Positions 7,877-55,113 of a stretch of DNA of 64,000 nucleotides are shown here, piece after piece. The notes beneath the pieces are model-generated. The model was not told the DNA's origin. It worked only from the letters and a program-made list of their open reading frames with translations, and made no database searches. The position numbers and the translations under genes are program-made. The stretch's first letter is position 1. Every line of letters starts with the position of its first letter. Source of the stretch: Lacinutrix sp. 5H-3-7-4 (GTDB taxonomy: Bacteria > Bacteroidota > Bacteroidia > Flavobacteriales > Flavobacteriaceae); contig NC_015638.1 of the NCBI RefSeq assembly GCF_000211855.2, forward strand, positions 2,143,001 through 2,207,000, written 5' to 3'.

Positions 7877-8707
7877 CTACTTTTTTCTTAAAACAGCGCT
7901 ATTTTCAAATTTATTTAATTCTATTTTAGGACTACCATAAATATAAGTTTGGGTGCTTCCAGAAGCTTCAAGAGTTAAAGCGTTGTTTACATCTATATAA
8001 ACATCTGCTTTATCTTTAGTAATTAAACTACAATTTTTCGAGGTAAAGTTTTCGGCTTTTAAATTTGTACTATTATCTGTAGTAATACTCAAATCATTAG
8101 TGTCTCCTTCAATTTTAGCATAAGCATTTTTAAGCATAGATATATTTGTATTGGCAGTATTAATTAATGCTTTTAAGCTAGTACTTTCTTTAAGGTTTAA
8201 AGTTGCGGCATCTGCAGTAACATTTAATTCGGCTTTACTTTTATCATTATGAGTAAAATTAAAGTTTTTAGCTTTAAAGGTTAAATATGTTCTTGAATTA
8301 GCATGAGTTATTAAATTAAAATCTTGAAGCAGTAATGTGTTTCCAGAGGTTAACTGAGCATTTTCTTTTAGTTCTATAGCGTTTAAAGAGTCTTTTACAA
8401 TTACGGTTATGTTAAACCTTTTGCTAGATGTAATACGCTGTAATTTGGTAAACTTTAAACTACCGTTTTGTACTTCGTAACTAATGGCGTTAAATAAGTT
8501 ATCATCTGCTTCAATTTGTACAGATGGCGCTAAACCTTGTAAAATTTTAATTTCAAAATCATCACCAATTACCAACCTGTTAAATGGAGAAAGCTCTGTT
8601 ATTTCTGTAACAACATTTCTGCTACCTTTAATTTTTTCAAGATCTTGTGCGAAGCTTAAAAAAATAGTTAGTAATGCAATAATAGTTAATTGTAGTTTTT
8701 TAATCAT
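7877..8707 (-). CDS. Head GIN domain-containing exported protein (DUF2807)
   Basis: A 276-residue protein with a Sec signal peptide (MIKKLQLTIIALLTIFLSFAQ, cleaved before about residue 22) and a body made of short repeated beta-strand units with motifs such as FNRLVIGDDFEIKILQG, the start of the head-GIN/DUF2807 beta-solenoid. The family is known from Bacteroidetes as a periplasmic or surface domain of unknown function, sometimes called putative auto-transporter adhesin. It lies directly downstream of the PspC-type gene on the same strand, but the hairpin at 8766-8806 separates them. Function unknown. Confidence 0.85.
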   Translation of the reverse strand: MIKKLQLTIIALLTIFLSFAQDLEKIKGSRNVVTEITELSPFNRLVIGDDFEIKILQGLAPSVQIEADDNLFNAISYEVQNGSLKFTKLQRITSSKRFNITVIVKDSLNAIELKENAQLTSGNTLLLQDFNLITHANSRTYLTFKAKNFNFTHNDKSKAELNVTADAATLNLKESTSLKALINTANTNISMLKNAYAKIEGDTNDLSITTDNSTNLKAENFTSKNCSLITKDKADVYIDVNNALTLEASGSTQTYIYGSPKIELNKFENSAVLRKK

Positions 8708-18957: not shown

Positions 18958-19028
18958 CAAATATCTTACAAGTTGTATGCTTTTAATATTTTATATGTCT
19001 CAATTGTAGTTTTTTATAAACCAATTGT
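18958..19028 (-). promoter_or_regulatory. LytTR-like operator and promoter of DUF2141 copy 1
   Basis: Read on the reverse strand: ACAATTGGT starting at 19028, ACAATTGAG starting at 19007 (21 bp apart), then GATATTTG with ATATTTG starting at 18964, exactly 43 bp after the second repeat begins. The ATG follows 37 bases later. The repeats differ from the published LytTR consensus [TA][AC][CA]GTTN[AG][TG] only at the G. The same spacing occurs at 41177-41247 and 45227-45297. Confidence 0.6.
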
Positions 19029-20356
19029 TAATTGGTTATGTAAATTTCAATTCTTCTGTTTTTAATACGTCCTTCATTAGTACTATTATCTGCTATTGGA
19101 TTTTCTTCACCGTAACCTTGAGAAGTTACTCTACTATTGCTAATGCCTTTTGTAATTAAATAGTTTTTTACAGAGGCTGCACGTTTTTCAGACAAAGCTA
19201 AATTTGTTGCTTTAGACCCAACATTATCTGTATGACCTGTAACATGAAATTTCATGTTTTTTTGAAGATTCATAATTTTATAAATTTCATCTAAAGCTTT
19301 TTTTCCTTCTGGACTTAGTGAGGTTTTTCCGTAGTTAAAAACTATAGCTTTACAATAATTATTAATATCGTTAGTAACTTGTTGTTTAATTTTAGCATTT
19401 CTATCTAAATTTTTTTGGCGTTCTAAATTTGCAAGTTGTTGTTTTTCTTGCGGTGTTAAAACTTTAGGGCAACCTTGGTTTTCTTTAACACCAGGTTGTT
19501 TTGGGCATTTATCAAATCTATCATCAATGCCATCACCATCTGTGTCAATTCTTGGGCAGCCATCATCGTTAATAGCACCTTTAACAGTAGGACATTTATC
19601 GTACTTATCTGGTGTGCCATCACCATCGTTATCTGGACATCCACGCATAGTTGTTGGTCCAAAATCATTAGGGCATAAATCTTCACTATCAATTACCGAG
19701 TCGCCATCTGCATCTGGGCAACCGTTTGCTTCTATAATACCAAATAAATCTGGGCAAGCATCTACATCATCATTAATACCATCGCCATCTGTATCTTTTC
19801 CTCCAAATCTAAATACAATACCTGCAGAGTGTTGGTAATGTTGTAAGCCATATTCTTTAAAAGCATGTTTGTAAACAGATTGTATATTAAAACCAAAACG
19901 GTCTCCAACCCAAATATTTACGCCAACACCGCCAGCTACTGTTCCTGCTCCAATTGTATCAAGCCATGTATAACCACCACCAAGAGTTGCGTATGGATCT
20001 AATAAACCTAAACCTTTTGTAAATTGATATTTAAACATACCGTCTAAAGAAATGTATGGATATTCTACTCCTTGAAGTTCTTCACTAATTGGTGTGTTTT
20101 CTTCAATTGAGTTTAGAGAAAAAACACTTTCGAATGTTACTTTATTGGTAATTAAACGGCCAACAGATAATCTAAATCCTGCTGCGTTTAAATTCCAGGT
20201 TTTAAAGCGCCCATCTAAATCTTGATCGCGAACAGGATTATTAATAGCATTGGCACCAAAGTTTACTAACCAAGGATTGTTTTTTGTTTGAGAAAAAGAG
20301 GCATGCGATAAAATTATGCACAATAAAATAAGGATAGAACGACCTAATGGTTTCAT
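19028..20356 (-). CDS. OmpA family outer-membrane protein with TSP3 calcium-binding repeats
   Basis: A 442-residue protein. A signal peptide (to about residue 22) is followed by an N-terminal OmpA-like beta-barrel (25-185). Then come about five thrombospondin type-3 repeats (about 190-300; units such as DTDGDGINDDVDACPDL and DNDGDGTPDKYDKCP) that bind calcium, and a C-terminal OmpA peptidoglycan-binding domain (about 330-442; VTGHTDNVGSKATNLALSE and the arginine-rich close RIKNRRIEIYI). It anchors the outer membrane to peptidoglycan. The DNA repetition of the TSP3 units makes long spurious frames on both strands. Confidence 0.94.
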   Translation of the reverse strand: MKPLGRSILILLCIILSHASFSQTKNNPWLVNFGANAINNPVRDQDLDGRFKTWNLNAAGFRLSVGRLITNKVTFESVFSLNSIEENTPISEELQGVEYPYISLDGMFKYQFTKGLGLLDPYATLGGGYTWLDTIGAGTVAGGVGVNIWVGDRFGFNIQSVYKHAFKEYGLQHYQHSAGIVFRFGGKDTDGDGINDDVDACPDLFGIIEANGCPDADGDSVIDSEDLCPNDFGPTTMRGCPDNDGDGTPDKYDKCPTVKGAINDDGCPRIDTDGDGIDDRFDKCPKQPGVKENQGCPKVLTPQEKQQLANLERQKNLDRNAKIKQQVTNDINNYCKAIVFNYGKTSLSPEGKKALDEIYKIMNLQKNMKFHVTGHTDNVGSKATNLALSEKRAASVKNYLITKGISNSRVTSQGYGEENPIADNSTNEGRIKNRRIEIYITN

Positions 20357-41176: not shown

Positions 41177-41247
41177 ACATTTCATCATTTAAATACTACA
41201 ACTCGGTAATAATCAATTTAAAAAACTAAAGTACGATTGCATATTTG
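41177..41247 (+). promoter_or_regulatory. LytTR-like operator and promoter of the TonB receptor
   Basis: ACATTTCAT at 41177 and ACAACTCGG at 41198 (21 bp apart), then ATATTTG at 41241, exactly 43 bp after the second repeat begins. The ATG is 64 bp after the second 11-bp repeat, the same as for the operon at 45322. Each repeat has one or two differences from the LytTR consensus. Sites of equal layout at 18958-19028 and 45227-45297. Confidence 0.6.
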
Positions 41248-41271: not shown

Positions 41272-43425
41272 ATGAAATGTATTTTACCATTACTACTAAG
41301 TTTAATAAGCTATGTAAGTATAGCACAAACACAAATTACAGGAACAATAACCAATAAAAAAAATGAACCTATTGTAGGAGCAAATATATACCTAGAAGGA
41401 ACGTACGATGGTACTACAACCTTACAAGACGGAACTTTTAATTTTACAACTGCCGAAACAGGTACACAAATTCTGGTAATCTCTTATGTAGGTTACGAAA
41501 CTTTTAAAATGGCAAGCGATGTAAGTACATTACAACACTTAAAAATACAATTACGAGACGATATTAACGCCTTAGAAACCGTAGTTTTATCTGCCGGAAC
41601 ATTTTCTGCCGGTGACAACAGTAAAGTTTCCGCATTAACATCTATGGATGTGGTTACAACAGCAAGCGCTTTAGGCGATTTTGTTGGTGCATTGCAAACA
41701 TTGCCAGGAACAACAACAGTTGCCGAAGATGGTAGGCTTTTTGTTCGTGGAGGAGAAGCAAACGAAACACAAATTTTTATAGACGGTATTCGTGTATTTA
41801 CACCATATACACCAACAACCAATAATATACCAACACGTGGTCGTTATTCGCCATTTTTATTTGATGGTATTACATTTTCTACAGGCGGTTATAGTGCCGA
41901 GTATGGTCAAGCATTATCTAGCGTTTTACTATTAAACACCTTTCAAGAACCAGATCAAAACAAAACCGAAATTAGAGTTATGAGCGTTGGAGCAGGTTTA
42001 GGTAATACACAAAAATGGGATAAAAGTTCTTTAAGTATAAATGCAAGCTATATAAATTTAGCACCGTATACAGCACTTTTTCCAGATCGTAATAATTGGC
42101 AAAAACCTTATGAAAACGCTAGTGGAGAAGCCGTTTTTAGACAAAAAACAAACAACGGATTATTAAAGCTTTATACGGCTTTTGATACGTCTAACTTTCA
42201 ATTAACACAAGAGGATATTAATTTTCAAAACGGTGTAAATTTTAAACTAAACAATAGCAATCTATATTTTAACGGCTCGTATAAAGCAAAGCTAAAAAAC
42301 AAATGGCGATTAGAAACAGGAGTAAGTTATACGTATGCAAAAAATAATATTAATATAGGGCAAAGTGATATAGACGATACAGAAAATTCTATACATGCAA
42401 AACTAAAGTTTAGAAAAAGCTTTAGTAACCGTTTTAAGCTTAATTTTGGTGCCGAATATTTTAATACCAATTTTAATGAAGCATACCAGGATAATTTTGT
42501 TTCACCTATAGATTATGGATATAAAAATAATATAAGCGCTGCATTTACAGAAGCAGATGTAATATTCTCTAAAAAAGTGGCTATAAAAGCAGGTTTTCGT
42601 GTAGAATATAGCGAGTTATTTAAAGAAACAACTCTTTCGCCAAGAGCTTCGTTAGCCTATAAAACAGGAGCAAGAAGTCAAGTATCCTTTGCTTATGGTG
42701 ATTTTTACCAAAATCCAAACAGTACTATTTTAAAGTTTAACCAAAACCTTAAAGCCGAAAAAGCCCAACATTTTATATTAAACTACCAATACAATAGCGA
42801 TGGTCGTATATTTCGTGCAGAAACGTATTATAAACAATATGATAATTTAGTAAAGTACGATAGTGATTTTACAAGTTTTGAAGCTAATTACAATACCAAC
42901 GGAAGTGGTTTTGCAAAAGGTTTAGATCTTTTTTATCGTGATAATAAAAGCATAAAGAATATAGATTATTGGGTAAGCTATTCGTTTTTAGATACCGAGC
43001 GTGACTACCTTAATTTTCCAACTGCAGCACAACCTAATTTTGCGAACCAACATAATATAAGTGTAGTTGGTAAATATTGGATTAACAAGTGGAAAAGTCA
43101 AGTAGGATTAAGTTATGCATTTGCATCTGGTAGAACATATACTAACCCAAATCAAGGTGGTTTTTTAAATCAAAAAACAAAAAGTTATAACAGTTTAAGT
43201 TTAAATTGGGCGTATTTATTAAGTCAGCAAAAAATATTATATTTTTCTGTAAATAATGTATTAGGCTTTAAAAACATTAATGGTTATCAATATGCAAACA
43301 CACCAGATGTAAATAATAATTTTGCAAGACAAACATTACGTCCAGCTGCAGATCAATTCTTTTTTGTAGGTTTCTTTTGGACTATAAGTGACAACGGGAC
43401 AGACAACCAATTGAATGATTTATAA
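41272..43425 (+). CDS. TonB-dependent receptor with carboxypeptidase-like regulatory domain
   Basis: About 717 residues from the ATG at 41272 (MKCILPLLLSLISYVSIAQ); an in-frame upstream TTG at 41245 would precede it by nine residues but gives no better signal. Signal peptide, then an N-terminal CarboxypepD_reg-like domain (about 20-100, NEPIVGANIYLEGTYDGTTT), a plug domain (110-230, GRLFVRGGEANETQIFIDGI) and a 22-strand barrel to the C terminus. It takes up an unidentified ligand with TonB. No adjacent SusD-like lipoprotein, so it is not a classic Sus pair. Its promoter carries LytTR-like sites shared with the LytS/LytTR operon. Confidence 0.88.
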   Translation: MKCILPLLLSLISYVSIAQTQITGTITNKKNEPIVGANIYLEGTYDGTTTLQDGTFNFTTAETGTQILVISYVGYETFKMASDVSTLQHLKIQLRDDINALETVVLSAGTFSAGDNSKVSALTSMDVVTTASALGDFVGALQTLPGTTTVAEDGRLFVRGGEANETQIFIDGIRVFTPYTPTTNNIPTRGRYSPFLFDGITFSTGGYSAEYGQALSSVLLLNTFQEPDQNKTEIRVMSVGAGLGNTQKWDKSSLSINASYINLAPYTALFPDRNNWQKPYENASGEAVFRQKTNNGLLKLYTAFDTSNFQLTQEDINFQNGVNFKLNNSNLYFNGSYKAKLKNKWRLETGVSYTYAKNNINIGQSDIDDTENSIHAKLKFRKSFSNRFKLNFGAEYFNTNFNEAYQDNFVSPIDYGYKNNISAAFTEADVIFSKKVAIKAGFRVEYSELFKETTLSPRASLAYKTGARSQVSFAYGDFYQNPNSTILKFNQNLKAEKAQHFILNYQYNSDGRIFRAETYYKQYDNLVKYDSDFTSFEANYNTNGSGFAKGLDLFYRDNKSIKNIDYWVSYSFLDTERDYLNFPTAAQPNFANQHNISVVGKYWINKWKSQVGLSYAFASGRTYTNPNQGGFLNQKTKSYNSLSLNWAYLLSQQKILYFSVNNVLGFKNINGYQYANTPDVNNNFARQTLRPAADQFFFVGFFWTISDNGTDNQLNDL

Positions 43426-45226: not shown

Positions 45227-45297
45227 ACAATTCGGTATTAAAAAATGACAGTTCGGTAAGTTGCTTTTTTTAAAACACGTGTTCTATAAGATATTTG
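45227..45297 (+). promoter_or_regulatory. LytTR-like operator and promoter of the DUF2141/LytTR operon
   Basis: ACAATTCGG at 45227 and ACAGTTCGG at 45248, 21 bp apart; the second is a perfect match to the LytTR consensus. GATATTTG follows, with ATATTTG at 45291, 43 bp after the second repeat begins. The ATG follows at 45322, 64 bp after the end of the second repeat. The operon codes for a LytTR regulator, so this would be its own site. Confidence 0.7.
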
Positions 45298-45321: not shown

Positions 45322-45735
45322 ATGAAACGTTCACTTTTAATTTTAGCAGTTTTATTTTCATTTCAGTTTATAACTGCACAGGCACAAAACATTACGGTTA
45401 ATATTTCTAATATAGACACGTATAAAGGCACTTTAGTTATTGGACTTTACGATAACGAATCACAATTTTTAAAGAAAACTGTAAAAGGGAAGCTTAAAAA
45501 AGTAACTAAAAATACAGCTACGGTTGTATTTCAAGAGGTAGAACCTGGAGATTATGCAGTGTCTTTATTTCATGATGTTAACGATAATAAAAAATTAGAC
45601 ACTTACGTATTTGGAATTCCAAAGGAAGATTATGGAACATCTAATAACGCTAAAGGTTTTATGGGACCACCAAAATGGGAAGATGCTGTTTTTACAGTAG
45701 ATTCTAAAAATGTAACACAAAATATTTCACTTTAA
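45322..45735 (+). CDS. DUF2141 domain-containing exported protein (copy 2)
   Basis: A 137-residue protein with a signal peptide (SLLILAVLFSFQFITAQA) and one DUF2141 domain: VNISNIDTYKGTLVIGLYDN, EVEPGDYAVSLFHDVNDNKK with the acidic loop, and IPKEDYGTSNNAKGFMGPPK. It is a paralogue of 18475-18927. First gene of an operon with a TPR protein, a LytS-type kinase, a 2TM protein and a LytTR regulator. It has the LytTR-like promoter described at 45227-45297, so it may be both target and first gene of the signalling unit. Confidence 0.88.
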   Translation: MKRSLLILAVLFSFQFITAQAQNITVNISNIDTYKGTLVIGLYDNESQFLKKTVKGKLKKVTKNTATVVFQEVEPGDYAVSLFHDVNDNKKLDTYVFGIPKEDYGTSNNAKGFMGPPKWEDAVFTVDSKNVTQNISL

Positions 45736-45747
45736 ACAACACAAATT

Positions 45748-46386
45748 ATGTACAGACTAGCACTATTAATTATTATGTTTTTAACGTCACAGTTAAATGC
45801 ACAAACCGAAACTAAAACAAATACAAACTTTGAAAAAGGTATGACAAAAGCCTTAGCACTATGGGAAAGTAATCCAGCCGATGCTGTAAACCTTTTTGAA
45901 CGTATAGCAAGTGCAGAACCAGACAATTGGTTACCGCCATATTATGCGGCAATGGTTTTAATTACTGGCGGATTTTCTGAAAATAATATGGAAACCGTGC
46001 ATGCTAATTTAAATCGTGCACAAAATTTTTTAAACGATGCCACAGCAATTTCTAAAGAGAATAGTGAAATTATGGTGCTTCAAGCCATGTTGCATACAGT
46101 ATACGTTGTAAAAGATGGCGCAAAATATGGTATGACTTTATCACCAAAAATTGCAAAAATTTATGAAGAAGCTTATAAATTGTCACCTAAAAACCCACGT
46201 GTATTATTAAGTAAAACACAATGGGATATGGGAGCAGCAAAATTCTTTGGTCAGGATACAAAACCTTTTTGCAAGGATATAGAAAAGGCGATAGAACTTT
46301 TTACTAACTTTAAACCAGAAACAAGTTTACATCCTAAATGGGGAATGGATGGTGCTAAAAAAGCATTAGCAGAATGTAAACTATAA
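45748..46386 (+). CDS. Exported TPR-like protein of the LytTR operon
   Basis: A 212-residue protein with a signal peptide (LALLIIMFLTSQLNAQ). The mature part has TPR-like helix pairs: ADAVNLFERIASAEPDNWLP, AYKLSPKNPRVLLSKTQWDM and a last pair ending CKDIEKAIELFTNF. Several Cys are present (FCKDI, AECKL). It may sit at the periplasmic face and interact with the neighbouring DUF2141 protein. Twelve bases from the DUF2141 stop; the kinase starts 15 bases later. Confidence 0.75.
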   Translation: MYRLALLIIMFLTSQLNAQTETKTNTNFEKGMTKALALWESNPADAVNLFERIASAEPDNWLPPYYAAMVLITGGFSENNMETVHANLNRAQNFLNDATAISKENSEIMVLQAMLHTVYVVKDGAKYGMTLSPKIAKIYEEAYKLSPKNPRVLLSKTQWDMGAAKFFGQDTKPFCKDIEKAIELFTNFKPETSLHPKWGMDGAKKALAECKL

Positions 46387-46401: not shown

Positions 46402-47745
46402 ATGCATAGAGTAACCAAACAATTATTAATCACTTTTTTAATAGGAACTTTAGTTTTTATTATTGGTACTGTGTTTTTTGAAGATTACCAGCACAAATCA
46501 ACAACACAATTTTTAATTGCTTTTGGGTTCTATCAACTGTATGCATTTGTGTTAGGCTTTAGTAATATGTTTTACTTTGGCTATTTAGAAAACAGAAATT
46601 GGAAAGATACAGATAGCAAAAAAAGAATAATAATAGGTATTGTAGGTTCTATTTTAATAACGCTTATAGGTTTATTTTTTTTACGTGCATTCACATCGGT
46701 TATATATTACGGCAATTCATTTAGTAGTTTTTTACAAAATGAAAGCTTAGAAGCTTACGAGTTTGGTTTTGTAATTACCATGCTTATAGTGTTTGTATTT
46801 CATGCCATATATTTTTACAATCGCTATCAAAAAAATAAAATAAAAGAGCAAAAGGTAATTGCAGGAACAGCAAGTGCAAAGTTTGACGCTTTAAAAAACC
46901 AATTAGACCCTCATTTTTTATTTAATAGTTTAAATGTATTAACCAGTTTAATTGAAGAAAACCCAAATAGCGCGCAAAAGTTTACCACGAGCCTATCTAA
47001 AGTTTACCGTTACGTTTTAGAACAAAAAAATAAGGATTTAGTAACTGTAGACGAAGAATTAAAATTTGCAAAAACCTACATGTCGTTATTAAAAATGAGG
47101 TTTGAAGACAGTATAATTTTTGACATACCTGAGCAAGCCTCAAATCCAGAAAGTAAAGTAGTACCATTATCATTACAATTACTTTTAGAAAATGCTGTAA
47201 AACATAACACTGTAACAGCTAGTAAGCCATTACACATTAAAATTTATGAGAAAAACGGCAATCTAGTTGTAGAAAATAACTTGCAAACCAAACAAGTAGT
47301 AAAAAAGAGTAGTGGCGTAGGTTTAAATAATATAAAACAACGCTATCAATTATTAACAAACAAATTAGTAAGTATAAATGAGTCTAAAACTAATTTTAGA
47401 GTAACCATTCCAATACTTACAAAACAAATAAAAACAATGAGACAATTACCACAAAAACAATTTGACGATCGCTACGTAAGAGCGCGAAAACGAGTAGAAG
47501 AAATAAAAGAATTTTATTACAACATAATCTCTTACTGCTTTGTAATCCCGTTTTTAATATTTATAAATTATCAAACCTATTGGGAGTTTAAATGGTTTCT
47601 ATTTCCAGTATTTGGTTGGGGATTAGGTATTGCATTTCATGCTTATAAAGTATTTGTAAACGATGGTGTTTTAGGGCGCAATTGGGAGCAACGCCAAATA
47701 GAAAAGTTTATGGAAGAAGAGCAAGCTAATAATCGTTATAAATAA
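46402..47745 (+). CDS. LytS-type sensor histidine kinase with C-terminal 2TM domain
   Basis: A 447-residue protein. N-terminal membrane part has four helices (about 8-26, 36-60, 75-100, 120-140). The HisKA-type His_kinase domain follows: PHFLFNSLNVLTSL with phosphorylated His171, then a HATPase with ENAVKHN and SGVGLNNIKQRY. Last comes a 2TM domain (RARKRVEEIKEFYYNIISY through GIAFHAYKVFVN, about 370-440). The partner LytTR regulator is two genes downstream. The 2TM extension is unusual on a kinase; the same domain is a separate protein in the next gene. Confidence 0.9.
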   Translation: MHRVTKQLLITFLIGTLVFIIGTVFFEDYQHKSTTQFLIAFGFYQLYAFVLGFSNMFYFGYLENRNWKDTDSKKRIIIGIVGSILITLIGLFFLRAFTSVIYYGNSFSSFLQNESLEAYEFGFVITMLIVFVFHAIYFYNRYQKNKIKEQKVIAGTASAKFDALKNQLDPHFLFNSLNVLTSLIEENPNSAQKFTTSLSKVYRYVLEQKNKDLVTVDEELKFAKTYMSLLKMRFEDSIIFDIPEQASNPESKVVPLSLQLLLENAVKHNTVTASKPLHIKIYEKNGNLVVENNLQTKQVVKKSSGVGLNNIKQRYQLLTNKLVSINESKTNFRVTIPILTKQIKTMRQLPQKQFDDRYVRARKRVEEIKEFYYNIISYCFVIPFLIFINYQTYWEFKWFLFPVFGWGLGIAFHAYKVFVNDGVLGRNWEQRQIEKFMEEEQANNRYK

Positions 47746-48137: not shown

Positions 48138-48893
48138 ATGAAAGTAATAATAATTGAAGACGAAAAACCATCTGCAAGACGTTTACAGCGCATGTTACAA
48201 GCCTTAAGTATTGAAGCAGAAACAATGTTGCACTCTGTAGAAGAAGCTATAGGATGGTTTCAAAATAATGAGCATCCAGATTTAATTTTTTTAGACATTC
48301 AATTAAGTGATGGCTTATCTTTCGAAATATTTGATGCTGTAGAAATACAGTCTGCTATAATTTTTACCACTGCTTATGATGAGTACGCATTACAAGCCTT
48401 TAAATTAAACAGTATCGATTATTTACTTAAGCCTATTGATGATGAAGAATTAGACCAAGCGGTGTCAAAGTTTAAAACCAGATTGCCAGAAAAACAAAAA
48501 GTAACTTTAGATTTTAACGATATTAAAAAGCTGTTGGTTAACCCAATTGAAAGAGAGTACAAAAAACGTTTCTCGGTTAAAGTTGGGCAACATTTAAAGC
48601 TAATTAATGTAGATGAAATTGAATGTTTTTATAGTGAAAACAAAGGAACCTATTTGCATACAACCGATGGTAGAAACTATTTGCTAGACACAACTTTAGA
48701 TAGTTTAGAAAACGAGTTAGAACCTAAACTGTTTTATAGAATAAATAGAAAGTTTTTTGTAAACATTCAAGCTATAAACGATATGGTGAGTTACACCAAT
48801 TCAAGACTTCAAATAAAATTAAATAGTTATAATGAGCAAGATGTTATAGTAGCCAGAGAACGTGTAAAAGATTTTAAAAATTGGTTAGAATAA
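48138..48893 (+). CDS. LytTR DNA-binding response regulator
   Basis: A 251-residue response regulator. Receiver domain: E7/D8, phosphorylated D53 in IFLDIQLSDG, FTTAYDEYALQAF and the conserved Lys in DYLLKPIDDEE. LytTR domain (about 145-250): KRFSVKVGQHLKLINVDEI, FYSENKGTYLHTTDGRNYLL, RINRKFFVNIQAI and VIVARERVKDFKNWL. LytTR regulators bind paired direct repeats of about 9 bp with 12-13 bp between; such pairs are seen upstream of this operon and two other genes. Convergent with the LETM1-related gene. Confidence 0.95.
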   Translation: MKVIIIEDEKPSARRLQRMLQALSIEAETMLHSVEEAIGWFQNNEHPDLIFLDIQLSDGLSFEIFDAVEIQSAIIFTTAYDEYALQAFKLNSIDYLLKPIDDEELDQAVSKFKTRLPEKQKVTLDFNDIKKLLVNPIEREYKKRFSVKVGQHLKLINVDEIECFYSENKGTYLHTTDGRNYLLDTTLDSLENELEPKLFYRINRKFFVNIQAINDMVSYTNSRLQIKLNSYNEQDVIVARERVKDFKNWLE

Positions 48894-50240: not shown

Positions 50241-50903
50241 ATGAAAAAAATGAAAATTTTACTTGGAGTCGCAGTAATTACAGTTGCTGGATTTCTAATG
50301 GTAGCTGCCGATCACATTGATGCGCCAGCTGTAAGTGGTGGCGGAGCTAGTTCGTCTACAGATATTACAGACTTTTATGCTTTTAGAGCAGAAAACACAG
50401 ATAATATTGCTTTTGTAGCAAATGTTAGAGGTTTAATTAGTCCTTCAGCATCATCATCGGTAGATTTTGATGAGAATGTTTTAATTGAAATTAATATTGA
50501 CACCAATGGAGATGCAGTACAAGATATGGTAATGCAAGCAATACCTAGAGATGGAAAAATGTACATTTTTGGACCGTTTGCATCAACATCTACAGATTTA
50601 AATAGTACAATAAATACAGATGCAGTAACAACTGTAGTAGATATTACACCTTATGGATCTAATGCTATTTCTGCAACAAATGCATCTGGAATTACTGCCT
50701 TTGCAGGATTAAGAGACGATCCATTTTATTTTGATTTTGCTCAGTATTCTGAAATTATTGCAGGAAATGCAACTAGTTTTAACGATCCTGGTACAGATTT
50801 ATTTGCAGGTACTAACGTATTATCATTAGTAGTTGAGGTTCCTAAAAGTTTAATAGGAGGAACAGGAACAATAAACACTTGGGTAGAAACTAAGTCTAAA
50901 TAA
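50241..50903 (+). CDS. DUF4331 family protein, N-terminal part (split gene 1)
   Basis: A 220-residue exported protein (signal ending about residue 22). It begins with the DHIDAPAVSGGGASSSTDIT motif characteristic of DUF4331, then ITDFYAFRAENTDNIAFVAN and GLRDDPFYFDFAQYSEII. DUF4331 proteins are usually 450-550 residues; the expected second half is missing here and appears as the next gene. Secreted or periplasmic, function unknown. Confidence 0.88.
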   Translation: MKKMKILLGVAVITVAGFLMVAADHIDAPAVSGGGASSSTDITDFYAFRAENTDNIAFVANVRGLISPSASSSVDFDENVLIEINIDTNGDAVQDMVMQAIPRDGKMYIFGPFASTSTDLNSTINTDAVTTVVDITPYGSNAISATNASGITAFAGLRDDPFYFDFAQYSEIIAGNATSFNDPGTDLFAGTNVLSLVVEVPKSLIGGTGTINTWVETKSK

Positions 50904-50930
50904 TAACTAACAAAAAATAAACTTAATATT

Positions 50931-51485
50931 ATGAAAAATATAAAAATATACATGTTAGCGGTACTAGTTTCGGCTGTATCTTTTAACTGTTCTAACGATG
51001 ATGATGCTGCTTTTATTACAGTAGCACCAGATCCAGATTTCTCTGGAACCTACACACAAGATGACCAAATGGCAAGACCTGCTATAAATACCGTTTTTGT
51101 AAATGACGGAAGTAAGGATATGTTTAATACTACAGTTCCTTCTGCGCAAGGTGCTGCATTTCAAACAGCTTTTGAAGATAAATTATTAGCCTTAAATCCT
51201 GGATACACAACAAATGCCTTAGGTTTTACAGCAACTCAATTTACTACAGCCTTAGCTACAGATGTTTTAACTGTAGATTTAGATGGAGAAACAACTTTTG
51301 CAAGTGCAGATCTATCTACTGTTTTAACTGGTAGAACTTTAATGGACGATGTAATTGATATAGAATTAACATTAATATTTGGAGGACCAGACGGATCAGA
51401 AAATCCAGGTTTAACAAGTGATAATGTACCTTCTAATGATAAAGCTTTTTTAGCCTCTTTTCCATATTTAGCTTCTCCTCACTAG
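50931..51485 (+). CDS. DUF4331-like protein, C-terminal part (split gene 2)
   Basis: A 184-residue lipoprotein (MKNIKIYMLAVLVSAVSFNC, Cys20). The mature part begins DDQMARPAINTVFVNDGSKD and follows the order of the C-terminal half of DUF4331 proteins (RVGNPLINEVVI-type core), ending SNDKAFLASFPYL. It has its own start, signal and lipobox, so it is a separate protein rather than a frameshift. 27 bases after its partner, probably a two-subunit version of the family. Confidence 0.75.
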   Translation: MKNIKIYMLAVLVSAVSFNCSNDDDAAFITVAPDPDFSGTYTQDDQMARPAINTVFVNDGSKDMFNTTVPSAQGAAFQTAFEDKLLALNPGYTTNALGFTATQFTTALATDVLTVDLDGETTFASADLSTVLTGRTLMDDVIDIELTLIFGGPDGSENPGLTSDNVPSNDKAFLASFPYLASPH

Positions 51486-51499
51486 AAGTCTAAATTAAT

Positions 51500-51540
51500 A
51501 ATAGAGCGTTAATTTTATTATTAGCGCTCTATTTTTTTAC
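51500..51540 (+). terminator. Terminator after the DUF4331 pair
   Basis: AATAGAGCG / CGCTCTATT with an inner TTAA/TTAG extension and a T run. It separates the DUF4331 pair from the TPR/TonB pair by about 35 bases; leaky read-through is possible. Confidence 0.85.
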
Positions 51541-51574
51541 CCAAAAACCAAGAAAACAAACAAAAACAAACAAC

Positions 51575-52855
51575 ATGAAAACCAAAATATTCACACTTTT
51601 AATTACTGTATTTCTGTTAGGATGTAATACAGAAACTAAAAAACAAATTTCGAATCCCGAAGATTATAACGTCTATTTAAATTCAGAAAATAAAAATTTA
51701 AAAACAGCACAAGATGAGTTGACTTTTTGGGAAAATAAACTAGAAGCCACACCAAACCAGTTTCCATATCTTGCAAAAAAAGCTTCTGCCGAAACTCAGT
51801 TATTTGGCATAACAGGAGATATTCAACATTTAATTAATGCCGAAAATTACTTAATTGAAGTAAACAAAACTACAAACTACAGTGAAGCAGGATATTTAAG
51901 AGCATTAGCCAGAAACTATATCTCTCAACATAGATTTAAAGAAGCTTTATTACTATTAGAAAAAGCCGAAACTAATGGTGAAAATTTAGCAGGTACACAA
52001 AAAATGTTATTTGATGTGCATATGGAATTAGGTAATAATGATAAAGCAAAACATTACCTAGAACAAGTTGTAGATTTAAATAGTTTCGATTATTTAATTA
52101 GAACAGCAAAATGGAATGACCATAAAGGTAATCTTGAAGCTGCCATAAAATATATGGAGCAAGCAATGGCTAAAACCGAATCTTCTAAAATAAAATCATC
52201 TATGCAATGGTCTTACACTAACATTGCAGATTTTTATGGGCACGATGGTCAAATACAAAAATCTTATAATTATTTTTTAAAAGCCTTAGAATTAAACCCT
52301 AACGATGCCTATGCGAAAAAAGGTATTGCATGGATAATATATTCTTACGAAAGAAATCCAGAAGAAGCTCTAAGAATTTTAAACACTATTACTACAAACT
52401 ATAAAGCACCAGATTATTATTTGTTAAAAGCTGAAATTGCTGAGTTTATGAAAGATGAAACAGCAAATACAAAATATTTGAGCCAATATAAAGAAGCTGT
52501 AAAAGACTCTAATTATGGCGATATGTATAATGCTTATAATATAGAATTATTAGCAGAAACCAATCCAGATTCTGCTTTGGTATTATCTAAAAAAGAAATT
52601 GAAAATAGAGCCACTGCTCAAACTTACGATTTATTATCTTGGGCGCATTTGCAAAAAGGAAACACAGCCGAAGCTTTAAAAATAGCAAAAGAACACGTTG
52701 TAAATAAAACTTACGAACCAACAGTTTTATACCATTTAGCAGAAATTTATAAAGCTAACAATATGGAAGACGAATTAAAACCGCTAAAAGAAGAACTTTT
52801 AGGTGCGTCTTATGAGTTAGGACCAATAATGGAAACTAAAATTAAGCAACTATAA
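51575..52855 (+). CDS. TPR-containing lipoprotein
   Basis: A 426-residue lipoprotein (ITVFLLGC, Cys17) of about ten TPR-like helix pairs, e.g. EAGYLRALARNYISQHRFKE, AYAKKGIAWIIYSYERNPEE and LLSWAHLQKGNTAEALKIAK. Found in the periplasm. It is followed 8 bases later by the TonB receptor gene, so the pair is probably a functional unit such as receptor plus binding or scaffold protein. Family members near DUF4331 are known but unassigned. Confidence 0.85.
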   Translation: MKTKIFTLLITVFLLGCNTETKKQISNPEDYNVYLNSENKNLKTAQDELTFWENKLEATPNQFPYLAKKASAETQLFGITGDIQHLINAENYLIEVNKTTNYSEAGYLRALARNYISQHRFKEALLLLEKAETNGENLAGTQKMLFDVHMELGNNDKAKHYLEQVVDLNSFDYLIRTAKWNDHKGNLEAAIKYMEQAMAKTESSKIKSSMQWSYTNIADFYGHDGQIQKSYNYFLKALELNPNDAYAKKGIAWIIYSYERNPEEALRILNTITTNYKAPDYYLLKAEIAEFMKDETANTKYLSQYKEAVKDSNYGDMYNAYNIELLAETNPDSALVLSKKEIENRATAQTYDLLSWAHLQKGNTAEALKIAKEHVVNKTYEPTVLYHLAEIYKANNMEDELKPLKEELLGASYELGPIMETKIKQL

Positions 52856-52863
52856 AATTACTA

Positions 52864-55113
52864 ATGAAAAAAATTAGCCACCAAATTAATTATGCTTTAA
52901 CAGCATTATTTCTAGTATTTACACTTTCTCTCTCTGCGCAGCAATTAAAAGGCGTTGTAGAAGACATTTACTCACAACCTTTAAGCGGTGTTTATATATA
53001 TAACTTAAATAGCGAAGCTCACGCACATACTTTAGATAATGGTGCCTTTGTAATAGAAAATACAAAACCAGAAGATACTTTGTCTGTAAGTTTATTAGGT
53101 TTTAAAAAATTAAACATTGTTTTAAAAAAAGAAGACTTTAACCAAGGTTTAAACATAAGTCTAGAACGTAAAATTTTTAGGTTAAATGAACTGGTTTTAA
53201 ATCAAGAAGTAGAAGTTTTAAACGCTTTACTTAAAATAGATGTAGACAATAATCCAATAAATTCATCACAAGAAATATTACAAAAAGTACCTGGATTAAT
53301 TATAGGTCAACACGCTGGTGGAGGTAAGGCCGAGCAACTTTTTTTAAGAGGTTTCGATATAGATCATGGTACAGATGTTTCTATAAATGTAGATGGTATA
53401 CCAGTTAACAATGTTTCTCATGCACATGGTCAAGGTTATAGCGATTTACACTTTCTTATACCAGAAACAATTAAAAATTTAGATTTTGGTAAAGGTCCGT
53501 ATTATGCAAATGCTAGAGACTTTACAACAGCAGGTTATGTAAATTTTAAGACAAAAAATTATTTAGACAGTAATGTAATAAAATTATCATACGGTCAATT
53601 TAATAGTATTAGAACATTAGGTTTATTTAATTTAATAGATAAATCTAAAAGTGATAATGCCTATGTAGGTATAGAATATATCGAGACCGATGGGCCATTT
53701 AATACCTCGCAAAACTTTAATCGTTTAAACCTATTTGGTAAATACAACACTTTTATAAATAGTAGTGATAGATTGGCAATTACAGCTTCGCATTTTACAA
53801 GTAGATGGGATGCATCTGGACAAATACCACAGCGAAAAGTAGATGATGGAACCATAGATAGATATGGAGCTATAGATGATACCGAAGGTGGAAATACAAG
53901 CCGTACAAATTTAAATGTAGAATTTCTTTCAGAGATAAATGAAAATACAACATTAAAATCAAACGTTTTTTACTCGCATTATGATTTTGAATTGTACTCT
54001 AATTTTACATTCTTTTTAGAAGACCCAATTAATGGCGACCAAATAAAACAAAAGGAAAACCGAAACATATTTGGTTTTAATGCTCAAATAGATAAGTTTT
54101 ATAATAAAGATGCTTTCGATGTTGAAACAACAGCAGGTATAGGTTTGCGTCACGATAAAAATGATGATGTAGAATTGTCACATACTTTAAACAGAAACAC
54201 TACACTAGAAAACATTCAATTAGGAGATATAAACCAAACTAATGCTTTTGCTTTTTATAAAGCTAAATTCGATTTTGGGCGATTTGAAATCACTCCAGGA
54301 TTACGTTTAGAATACTTTAAGTTTTTATATAACGATAAATTACTTGAGACTTATAATACCCAATCTGAAACAAAAACAGCATTACTACCTAAACTAAATA
54401 TAGTGTTTAGGCAAAATGAAAACTTACAATGGTTTTTAAAATCTGGTATTGGTTTTCACTCTAATGATGCTAGAGTAGTTGTAGCACAAGAAGGAGAAGA
54501 TATTTTACCAAAAGCTTATGGTGTAGATTTTGGTACAATTTATAAACCATTTTCAAAACTATTTTTAAATGCAACGGTTTGGTATTTACACTTAGACCAA
54601 GAATTTGTTTACGTTGGAGATGCAGGAATAGTAGAACCTAGCGGAAAAACAAAAAGGTTAGGTTTAGATTTAGGATTACGATATGAGTTAAACGAGTATT
54701 TATATTTAAATACCGATGCAACCTTAACACAAGCACGAGCTATAGATGAGGTTGATGGTGAAGATCATATACCTTTAGCACCTAGCTTTACATTAGTTGG
54801 AGGGTTGGCGTTAAAAGATTTTAATAATTTCTCAGGAAGCTTTAGATACAGATATATTGATGATAGGCCAGCAAATGAAGACTATTCTGTAACAGCTGAA
54901 GGTTATTTTGTTACAGATTTTAATATAAATTATCAATTTAATAAAAACTTAAACTTAGGTGTTTCAATAGAAAACTTATTTGATGTAGAATGGAATGAAA
55001 CACAATTTTTAACCGAGTCAAGATTACAAAACGAAGCTGCATCAGTAGAAGAAATTCACTTTACTCCGGGCACACCATTTAATGCAAAAATGATATTAAC
55101 TTACAAATTTTAA
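52864..55113 (+). CDS. TonB-dependent receptor with histidine-rich plug
   Basis: A 749-residue receptor: signal peptide to about 24, CarboxypepD_reg-like domain (25-105), plug (about 115-230) with RGFDIDHGTDVSINVDGI and VSHAHGQGYSDLHFLIPET, and a barrel ending KMILTYKF. The plug carries several histidines (HAHGQG, DLHF) and the N-terminal domain has SEAHAHTLD, suggesting a metal-related ligand (inference). It follows a TPR lipoprotein and is not next to a SusD gene. Downstream is a long non-coding stretch. Confidence 0.88.
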   Translation: MKKISHQINYALTALFLVFTLSLSAQQLKGVVEDIYSQPLSGVYIYNLNSEAHAHTLDNGAFVIENTKPEDTLSVSLLGFKKLNIVLKKEDFNQGLNISLERKIFRLNELVLNQEVEVLNALLKIDVDNNPINSSQEILQKVPGLIIGQHAGGGKAEQLFLRGFDIDHGTDVSINVDGIPVNNVSHAHGQGYSDLHFLIPETIKNLDFGKGPYYANARDFTTAGYVNFKTKNYLDSNVIKLSYGQFNSIRTLGLFNLIDKSKSDNAYVGIEYIETDGPFNTSQNFNRLNLFGKYNTFINSSDRLAITASHFTSRWDASGQIPQRKVDDGTIDRYGAIDDTEGGNTSRTNLNVEFLSEINENTTLKSNVFYSHYDFELYSNFTFFLEDPINGDQIKQKENRNIFGFNAQIDKFYNKDAFDVETTAGIGLRHDKNDDVELSHTLNRNTTLENIQLGDINQTNAFAFYKAKFDFGRFEITPGLRLEYFKFLYNDKLLETYNTQSETKTALLPKLNIVFRQNENLQWFLKSGIGFHSNDARVVVAQEGEDILPKAYGVDFGTIYKPFSKLFLNATVWYLHLDQEFVYVGDAGIVEPSGKTKRLGLDLGLRYELNEYLYLNTDATLTQARAIDEVDGEDHIPLAPSFTLVGGLALKDFNNFSGSFRYRYIDDRPANEDYSVTAEGYFVTDFNINYQFNKNLNLGVSIENLFDVEWNETQFLTESRLQNEAASVEEIHFTPGTPFNAKMILTYKF

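Follow-up and report, generated by a model that had tools for sequence, protein, structure and literature searches.

The question raised by this locus is whether a pair of short direct repeats followed by an ATATTTG box, on the reverse strand in front of a DUF2141 gene of Lacinutrix sp. 5H-3-7-4, is a regulatory site and, if so, for which regulator and which genes. The window, the whole stretch of 64,000 nucleotides that was analyzed, had been given a sequence-only reading, in which the repeat pair was the third copy of an operator that places two DUF2141 genes and a TonB receptor gene under one LytTR regulator, in an undescribed regulon with DUF2141 as its hallmark. The evidence presented here indicates that such a regulon very probably exists, with the regulator operon rather than DUF2141 as its constant part.

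The element and its counterparts in the window

Repeat 1 (ACAATTGGT, 19028-19020 on the reverse strand) and repeat 2 (ACAATTGAG, 19007-18999) are 21 bp apart from start to start, with 12 bp between them, and an ATATTTG resembling a -7 element (18964-18958) begins 43 bp past the start of repeat 2 and 34 bp past its end, the layout that the sequence-only reading had described. Its further observation, that TAAGATATTTG at 18968-18958 on the reverse strand is identical to 45287-45297 on the forward strand, is also correct, and the two DUF2141 genes that it had called paralogues, 26 kb apart, both match PF09912 (115 and 121 bits, against a Pfam gathering score of 24.4); a PF09912 search of the genome returned these two genes and one weak match within a 539-aa frame. 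The protein encoded by the nearer gene, DUF2141-a, is probably secreted, as its structure model has a hydrophobic N-terminal helix (residues 9-29). On its upstream side, the element touches an OmpA-family gene: the first base of repeat 1 is the last base of the TAA stop codon of that gene, and repeat 1 is contained in a perfect 8-bp inverted repeat that spans the stop codon. The features of the window are collected in Table 1.

Table 1. Position of the predicted operators and of the genes discussed (coordinates in the window)
Feature	Position	Strand	Basis and remarks
DUF2807 gene, without operator	7877-8707		Matrix scan; PF10988
DUF2141-a gene, 150 aa	18475-18927	-	PF09912, E 2.2e-33; ATG 30 nt past ATATTTG
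LytTR-type operator/promoter element of DUF2141-a, predicted	18958-19028	-	Sequence; one of three matches in the genome; conserved geometry
OmpA-family gene upstream of DUF2141-a	19028-20356	-	PF00691
Operator of TonB receptor gene, predicted	41177-41247	+	ACATTTCAT at 41177, ACAACTCGG at 41198, ATATTTG at 41241-41247; 3 mismatches; matrix score 44.8
TonB-dependent receptor gene	41272-43425	+	PF00593, PF07715, PF13715; first ATG at 41272
Operator of regulator operon, predicted	45227-45297	+	ACAATTCGG at 45227, ACAGTTCGG at 45248, ATATTTG at 45291-45297; 0 mismatches
DUF2141-b, operon gene 1	45322-45735	+	PF09912, E 2.9e-35
TPR protein, operon gene 2	45748-46386	+	PF14559, barely above cut-off; equivalent place in related loci
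Sensor histidine kinase with 2TM domain	46402-47745	+	PF06580, E 8.7e-26; PF13239
Small 2TM protein, 115 aa	47754-48101	+	PF13239
REC-LytTR response regulator, predicted to bind the operators	48138-48893	+	PF00072, E 1e-13; PF04397, E 2.8e-21

Counted in the genome, ACAATTG occurs 13 times against 18.3 expected, the repeat pair alone once against 0.99, and TAAGATATTTG with up to one mismatch 4 times against 5.5, and the ACARTTCGG pair with up to three mismatches has 4 matches, its reversed pattern having 5; only the copy at 45 kb is exact. Because the single words, the pair, and TAAGATATTTG are no commoner than chance, the evidence of the sequence-only reading would by itself have been weak. 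For the whole geometry, a first pattern had 2 matches against 0.01 expected, of which only the 45-kb match (3 mismatches) counts, the pattern having been derived from the 19-kb site. The full pattern, ACARTTSRG-12-ACARTTSRG-35-TATTTG with up to 3 mismatches, has exactly three matches in the 3,296,168 bases of the genome, all of them in the window (at 19, 41, and 45 kb), and none in the reversed control, so that the 19-kb element is indeed one of three copies; the 13 genomes of the genus yield 37 matches, and the reversed pattern yields 1. A matrix trained on 75 operon promoters of named genomes, one of which (L082) is near-identical to the present genome, gave scores of 73.7, 44.8, and 38.4 to the 45-, 41-, and 19-kb sites, respectively, the next-best site in the window scoring -10.2 and the best in the reversed window -17.5.

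Conservation of the operator with the regulator operon and its targets

The regulator operon was compared among 80 named loci, each surrounding a LytTR homologue (77-100% identity), from Lacinutrix, Winogradskyella, Algibacter, Psychroserpens, Olleya, and others; a homologue of the kinase is present in 78. In five of the 80 the operon start was not found or lies less than 400 bp from the end of the locus, and among the remaining 75 the operator precedes the operon, at equal spacing, in 73, including all 37 operons with DUF2141 and 36 of the 38 in which no DUF2141 was found. One of the two misses (L130) has no recognizable site; the other (L156) has a site, the script having been misled by an upstream paralogue. 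There are 95 sites with up to 4 mismatches in the 80 loci, against 1 in the reversed sequence. A scan of offsets in 75 operon sites, chosen beforehand for this very geometry with up to 4 mismatches, found a repeat-like word at offset 21 in 74 and an exact ATATTTG at offset 43 in 72, and neither at any other offset scanned. Downstream of the operon in the window (50241-55113) lie a DUF4331 gene, an unnamed gene, a TPR protein gene, and a second TonB receptor gene, which are found near the regulator in many named loci; the matrix scan of the window places no operator before them.

A homologue of DUF2141-a is present in 9 of the 13 genomes of the genus, and all nine loci, with that of the window included in both counts, have the repeat pair and an ATATTTG-like box at equal spacing, some with words such as ACCGTTCAG/ACAGTTGAG. 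Five further DUF2141 loci of the genus were considered, with the operator present in L017-L020 and missing in L021. The best DUF2141 homologues of 28 other genera all have the operator (28 of 28, with 1-5 mismatches of 24), both the next-best position and the reversed sequence having at least 7 mismatches. Seven of the nine genus loci have an OmpA match in the 1.5 kb upstream, with the operator in each case beginning on the final base of the OmpA stop codon; such a match is also present in 4 of the 28 other-genus loci. The operator is retained in L013, L016, and 24 of the 28 other-genus loci with no OmpA match within that distance, which places the predicted operator with the DUF2141 gene and not with the OmpA gene.

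The survey of DUF2141 promoters in Flavobacteriaceae that had been proposed with the sequence-only reading upholds it for only part of the family. Scanned with the matrix, 67 of 103 further promoters score -22.3 or higher and 36 score -32.1 or lower, with the highest reversed control at -29.9; the former are judged by their sequence to carry the operator and the latter to lack it, and DUF2141 promoters without the repeat pair had been named in advance as evidence against the proposal. It should be noted that some of the 103 are operon promoters from genomes represented in the training of the matrix (for example, L258 and L153) and that for 6 of the 67 sites the distance to the beginning of the protein match exceeds 100 bp, the matches in question being long fused or partial ones. 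Left out were five weak DUF2141 matches (E 3.4e-5 to 5.1e-4) and the additional copy in G016, as well as the second gene of the tandem pair in each of G130, G028, and G146, the one in G146 having a site listed upstream. On the opposite strand, 3 of the 103 regions score 5.9-14.5; these sites were taken for putative divergent targets, and, among the matches listed, two opposite-strand sites (G038 and G115) adjoin divergent genes. Three weak matches in the genus (L067, L076, and L078, scoring 0.1, -4.1, and -5.1) were excluded from the target count. A match with a score of 19.2 (L077, G012:C1:276001-276071, reverse strand) lies 29 nt before a 346-aa reading frame and is a possible extra target in one genome of the genus.

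The distribution of the operator was mapped on a tree of 95 DUF2141 proteins, comprising all 36 operator-less genes of the 103 set and L021, 24 of the 67 operator-bearing further genes, 27 of the 28 other-genus genes, both window genes, and five genus genes; L175, which contains a stop, was omitted. A single branch divides all 58 operator-bearing rows from the others, so that the operator label needs one change, as it does in 98% of 200 bootstrap trees, against an average of 29.6 changes for shuffled labels. The support of the separating branch is 97/50, in a tree with few alignment columns, a midpoint root, and a bootstrap that had not settled. The simplest reading is that the operator was gained once, before the duplication that gave rise to both DUF2141 paralogues of the window, and was then retained; a promoter element, besides the protein itself, would mark a DUF2141 subfamily.

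DUF2141 is described in a passage of PMC5989583 as a family with no known function. The structure model is confident (mean pLDDT 90.9), and a fold search of the PDB with it gave weak matches, mostly to β-sandwich pilin/adhesin domains and starch-binding domains, of which two had E <= 0.001 with TM-scores under 0.3; because of this weakness, an assignment of function from the fold was dropped. A sequence search for a solved relative of DUF2141-b found none, and NCBIfam gave no match above its curated cut-offs for DUF2141, the kinase, or the regulator. In an alignment of 35 DUF2141 proteins, His97, Asp98, and Asn100 are invariant and Asn102 and Asp106 nearly so, in a motif, HDxNxNxxMD, that we take to be calcium-loop-like.

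The predicted operator of the TonB receptor gene was recognized in 19 of 24 related loci with this TonB receptor in view, the other 5 having no recognizable site; in the window a TTG start at 41245 is also listed for this gene, as against its first ATG (Table 1). A second kind of conserved operator site, before a DUF2807-type gene, is found in eight loci from other genera (L302, L303, and L304-L309), which were picked for a common extra block among the matches listed. This block (about GATATTTAAGTTATTAAT) begins at the end of repeat 2, and the sites are followed by lipoprotein-type genes with like starts, which are the first listed gene in seven loci and the second in L303; five of these genes were scanned, and all five proved to be DUF2807 (PF10988, with E values of 1.8e-43 or better). 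The DUF2807 gene is therefore, to judge by its promoter, a likely fourth member of the regulon outside the genome studied here. Within this genome, DUF2807 was not accepted as a target: when 560 bp around the start of each of its four PF10988 matches were scored, none exceeded -42.7, a level like that of reversed controls. The role of hallmark that had been proposed for DUF2141 is thus not borne out, given the DUF2807 sites, the operator-less DUF2141 promoters, and the regulator operons that keep the site without DUF2141; the constant feature is the regulator operon with its predicted operator.

A full-length match to the regulator (84-100% identity) is present in 12 of the 13 genomes of the genus, that of the window included, and is broken in G004. 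There the match (G004:C1:1166902-1167655; L034, L039) is split over two frames with internal stops, in a genome of 84% completeness, and the split could be a sequencing error. Across the family, the regulator is present at E <= 1e-60 in 118 of 149 genomes, and a motif match is found in 116 of these 118 as against 3 of the 31 without it (Fisher 1.2e-24, with kinship among the 149 genomes ignored). In G043 and G105 the regulator is present with no motif match, and in G063 and G110 a single motif match is present in the absence of the regulator. Eight DUF2141 promoters of genomes that lack the regulator were tested, and the operator is missing from seven. The exception is G018, where an operator with a matrix score of 53.1 precedes DUF2141 (G018:C8:43926-44676, L228) and the best LytTR proteins are 27-31% identical; an assembly gap, a recent loss of the regulator, or a substitute regulator are options. 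In a sample of the phylum, a motif match was found in 29 of 30 Flavobacteriaceae genomes and in 31 of 266 outside the family, where the reversed control matched in 10 of the 266 (counted by hand from the table), which points to the element being largely a feature of Flavobacteriaceae; in genus g127, all 17 sampled genomes have a match. With a common operator that co-occurs with the regulator across the family, the claim that both DUF2141 genes and the TonB receptor gene stand under one predicted LytTR regulator holds, and several uncharacterized cell-surface genes are tied to that regulator.

Promoter layout, proposed mechanism, and alternatives

The consensus of the Bacteroidota σA -7 element is given in a passage of PMC9723704 as TAnnTTTG. 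The first T of this sequence is replaced by G or C in all 75 operon sites and all 19 TonB sites, whereas TTTG is retained in 74 of the 75 and 19 of the 19; a -7 element that is degenerate at a fixed position fits a promoter that needs an activator. The element is, with high probability, the activator site of an autoregulated two-component system of the LytTR type. In the proposed mechanism, the 2TM histidine kinase would phosphorylate the REC-LytTR regulator. Each repeat would be bound by one regulator monomer, the two monomers sitting two turns apart along one face of the helix, about 45-75 bp before the transcription start. The bound regulator would recruit σA polymerase to a promoter whose -7 element is defective and in which a TTTTT..AAAA block appears to occupy the expected position of a -33 TTG. 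The operon would thus be under positive feedback, and the DUF2141 proteins would be induced together with the TonB receptor and, in other genera, also with the DUF2807 (Toastrack) protein. The output is probably an envelope or outer membrane response, a guess made because of the kind of products and because Toastrack proteins belong to envelope stress systems. A wider proposal, of an undescribed pathway of outer-envelope sensing throughout Flavobacteriaceae in which DUF2141 and the TonB receptor are both outputs of the system and inputs to the 2TM kinase, and in which the operator of the DUF2141 clade was gained once and spread by duplication, is speculative and rather doubtful.

The sign of a regulatory effect is not readable from sequence alone, so that the operator could be real and the regulator a repressor, or a repressor at some promoters and an activator at others. 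We consider this unlikely, as the repeats are upstream of the -7 element and not over it, the degeneracy of that element in every operon and TonB site resembles that of activator-dependent promoters, and described LytTR operators of equal layout, according to parts of PMC6193735, activate. Slightly less probable again is binding by another LytTR paralogue instead of the regulator of the operon: the genome contains a further three LytTR matches at E <= 1e-20, and G018 has an operator with just its distant LytTR proteins, but the operator precedes the regulator's own operon in nearly all loci compared and tracks the regulator orthologue across the family genomes. That the 19-kb pair arose by chance in AT-rich DNA, or belongs to a terminator hairpin for the OmpA gene, is very improbable despite the chance frequency of the pair alone and the inverted repeat around repeat 1, since footprinting across orthologues, with pair and box conserved, rules out chance, and the hairpin is without a long T-run after it and is not conserved, L011 and L012 having lost the inverted repeat yet kept the repeat pair and many loci having the operator with no OmpA match nearby.

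Activation by the operon's own regulator thus being the favored reading, DUF2141, the TonB receptor, and the DUF2807 protein gain a predicted regulator, a precise predicted operator, and a promoter. Searches of open-licence PMC literature by title and start of abstract, with most subscription papers outside their scope, found nothing on such a regulon, and passages on DUF2141 in open-licence PMC papers contain nothing on its regulation; the regulon is probably undescribed, the kind of LytTR operator being already known.

Comparison with known systems

LytTR regulators recognize the general word [TA][AC][CA]GTTN[AG][TG], which ACAGTTCGG at 45 kb and some of the orthologue repeats fit fully; both 19-kb repeats have A instead of G at position 4. 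Close to the element described here are presumably the LytTR-family operator systems of AgrA and ComE. From these, and from HdrR/BrsR, the present system differs in its word, ACARTTSRG, in its Bacteroidota -7 element, and in its targets, namely DUF2141, the TonB receptor, and DUF2807. The HdrR/BrsR operators, as described in parts of PMC6193735, likewise have two 9-bp direct repeats, separated by 12 bp, ahead of a promoter, and include a site before their own operon with positive autoregulation; the regulator operon here also has its own site, at which autoactivation would be expected from the similarity. The features of a two-component system are present, with REC and LytTR domains in the regulator, a kinase in the operon, and a 9-bp repeat pair ∼12 bp apart upstream of the promoter.

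The LytTR regulatory systems (LRS) and the LRS-like operons of Bacteroides (PMC6193735, Table 3) also have a LytTR regulator beside membrane proteins and autoregulatory repeats, and in the B. thetaiotaomicron entry of that table the end of repeat 2 is 34 bp before TATCTTTG, as compared with 33 bp to the equivalent 8-mer here. Membership in the LRS group, in which the LytTR regulator has no receiver domain or kinase and is controlled by an inhibitory membrane protein, was rejected, because the system here has a receiver domain and a histidine kinase; furthermore, its repeats are 9 rather than 11 bp and its regulon includes distant genes. Envelope stress systems of the Lia/Psp type, according to passages of PMC11237479, tie a two-component system to a Toastrack (DUF2807/DUF4097) protein; the DUF2807 genes of the present genome being without the operator, the corresponding link here runs through the predicted operator in other genera.
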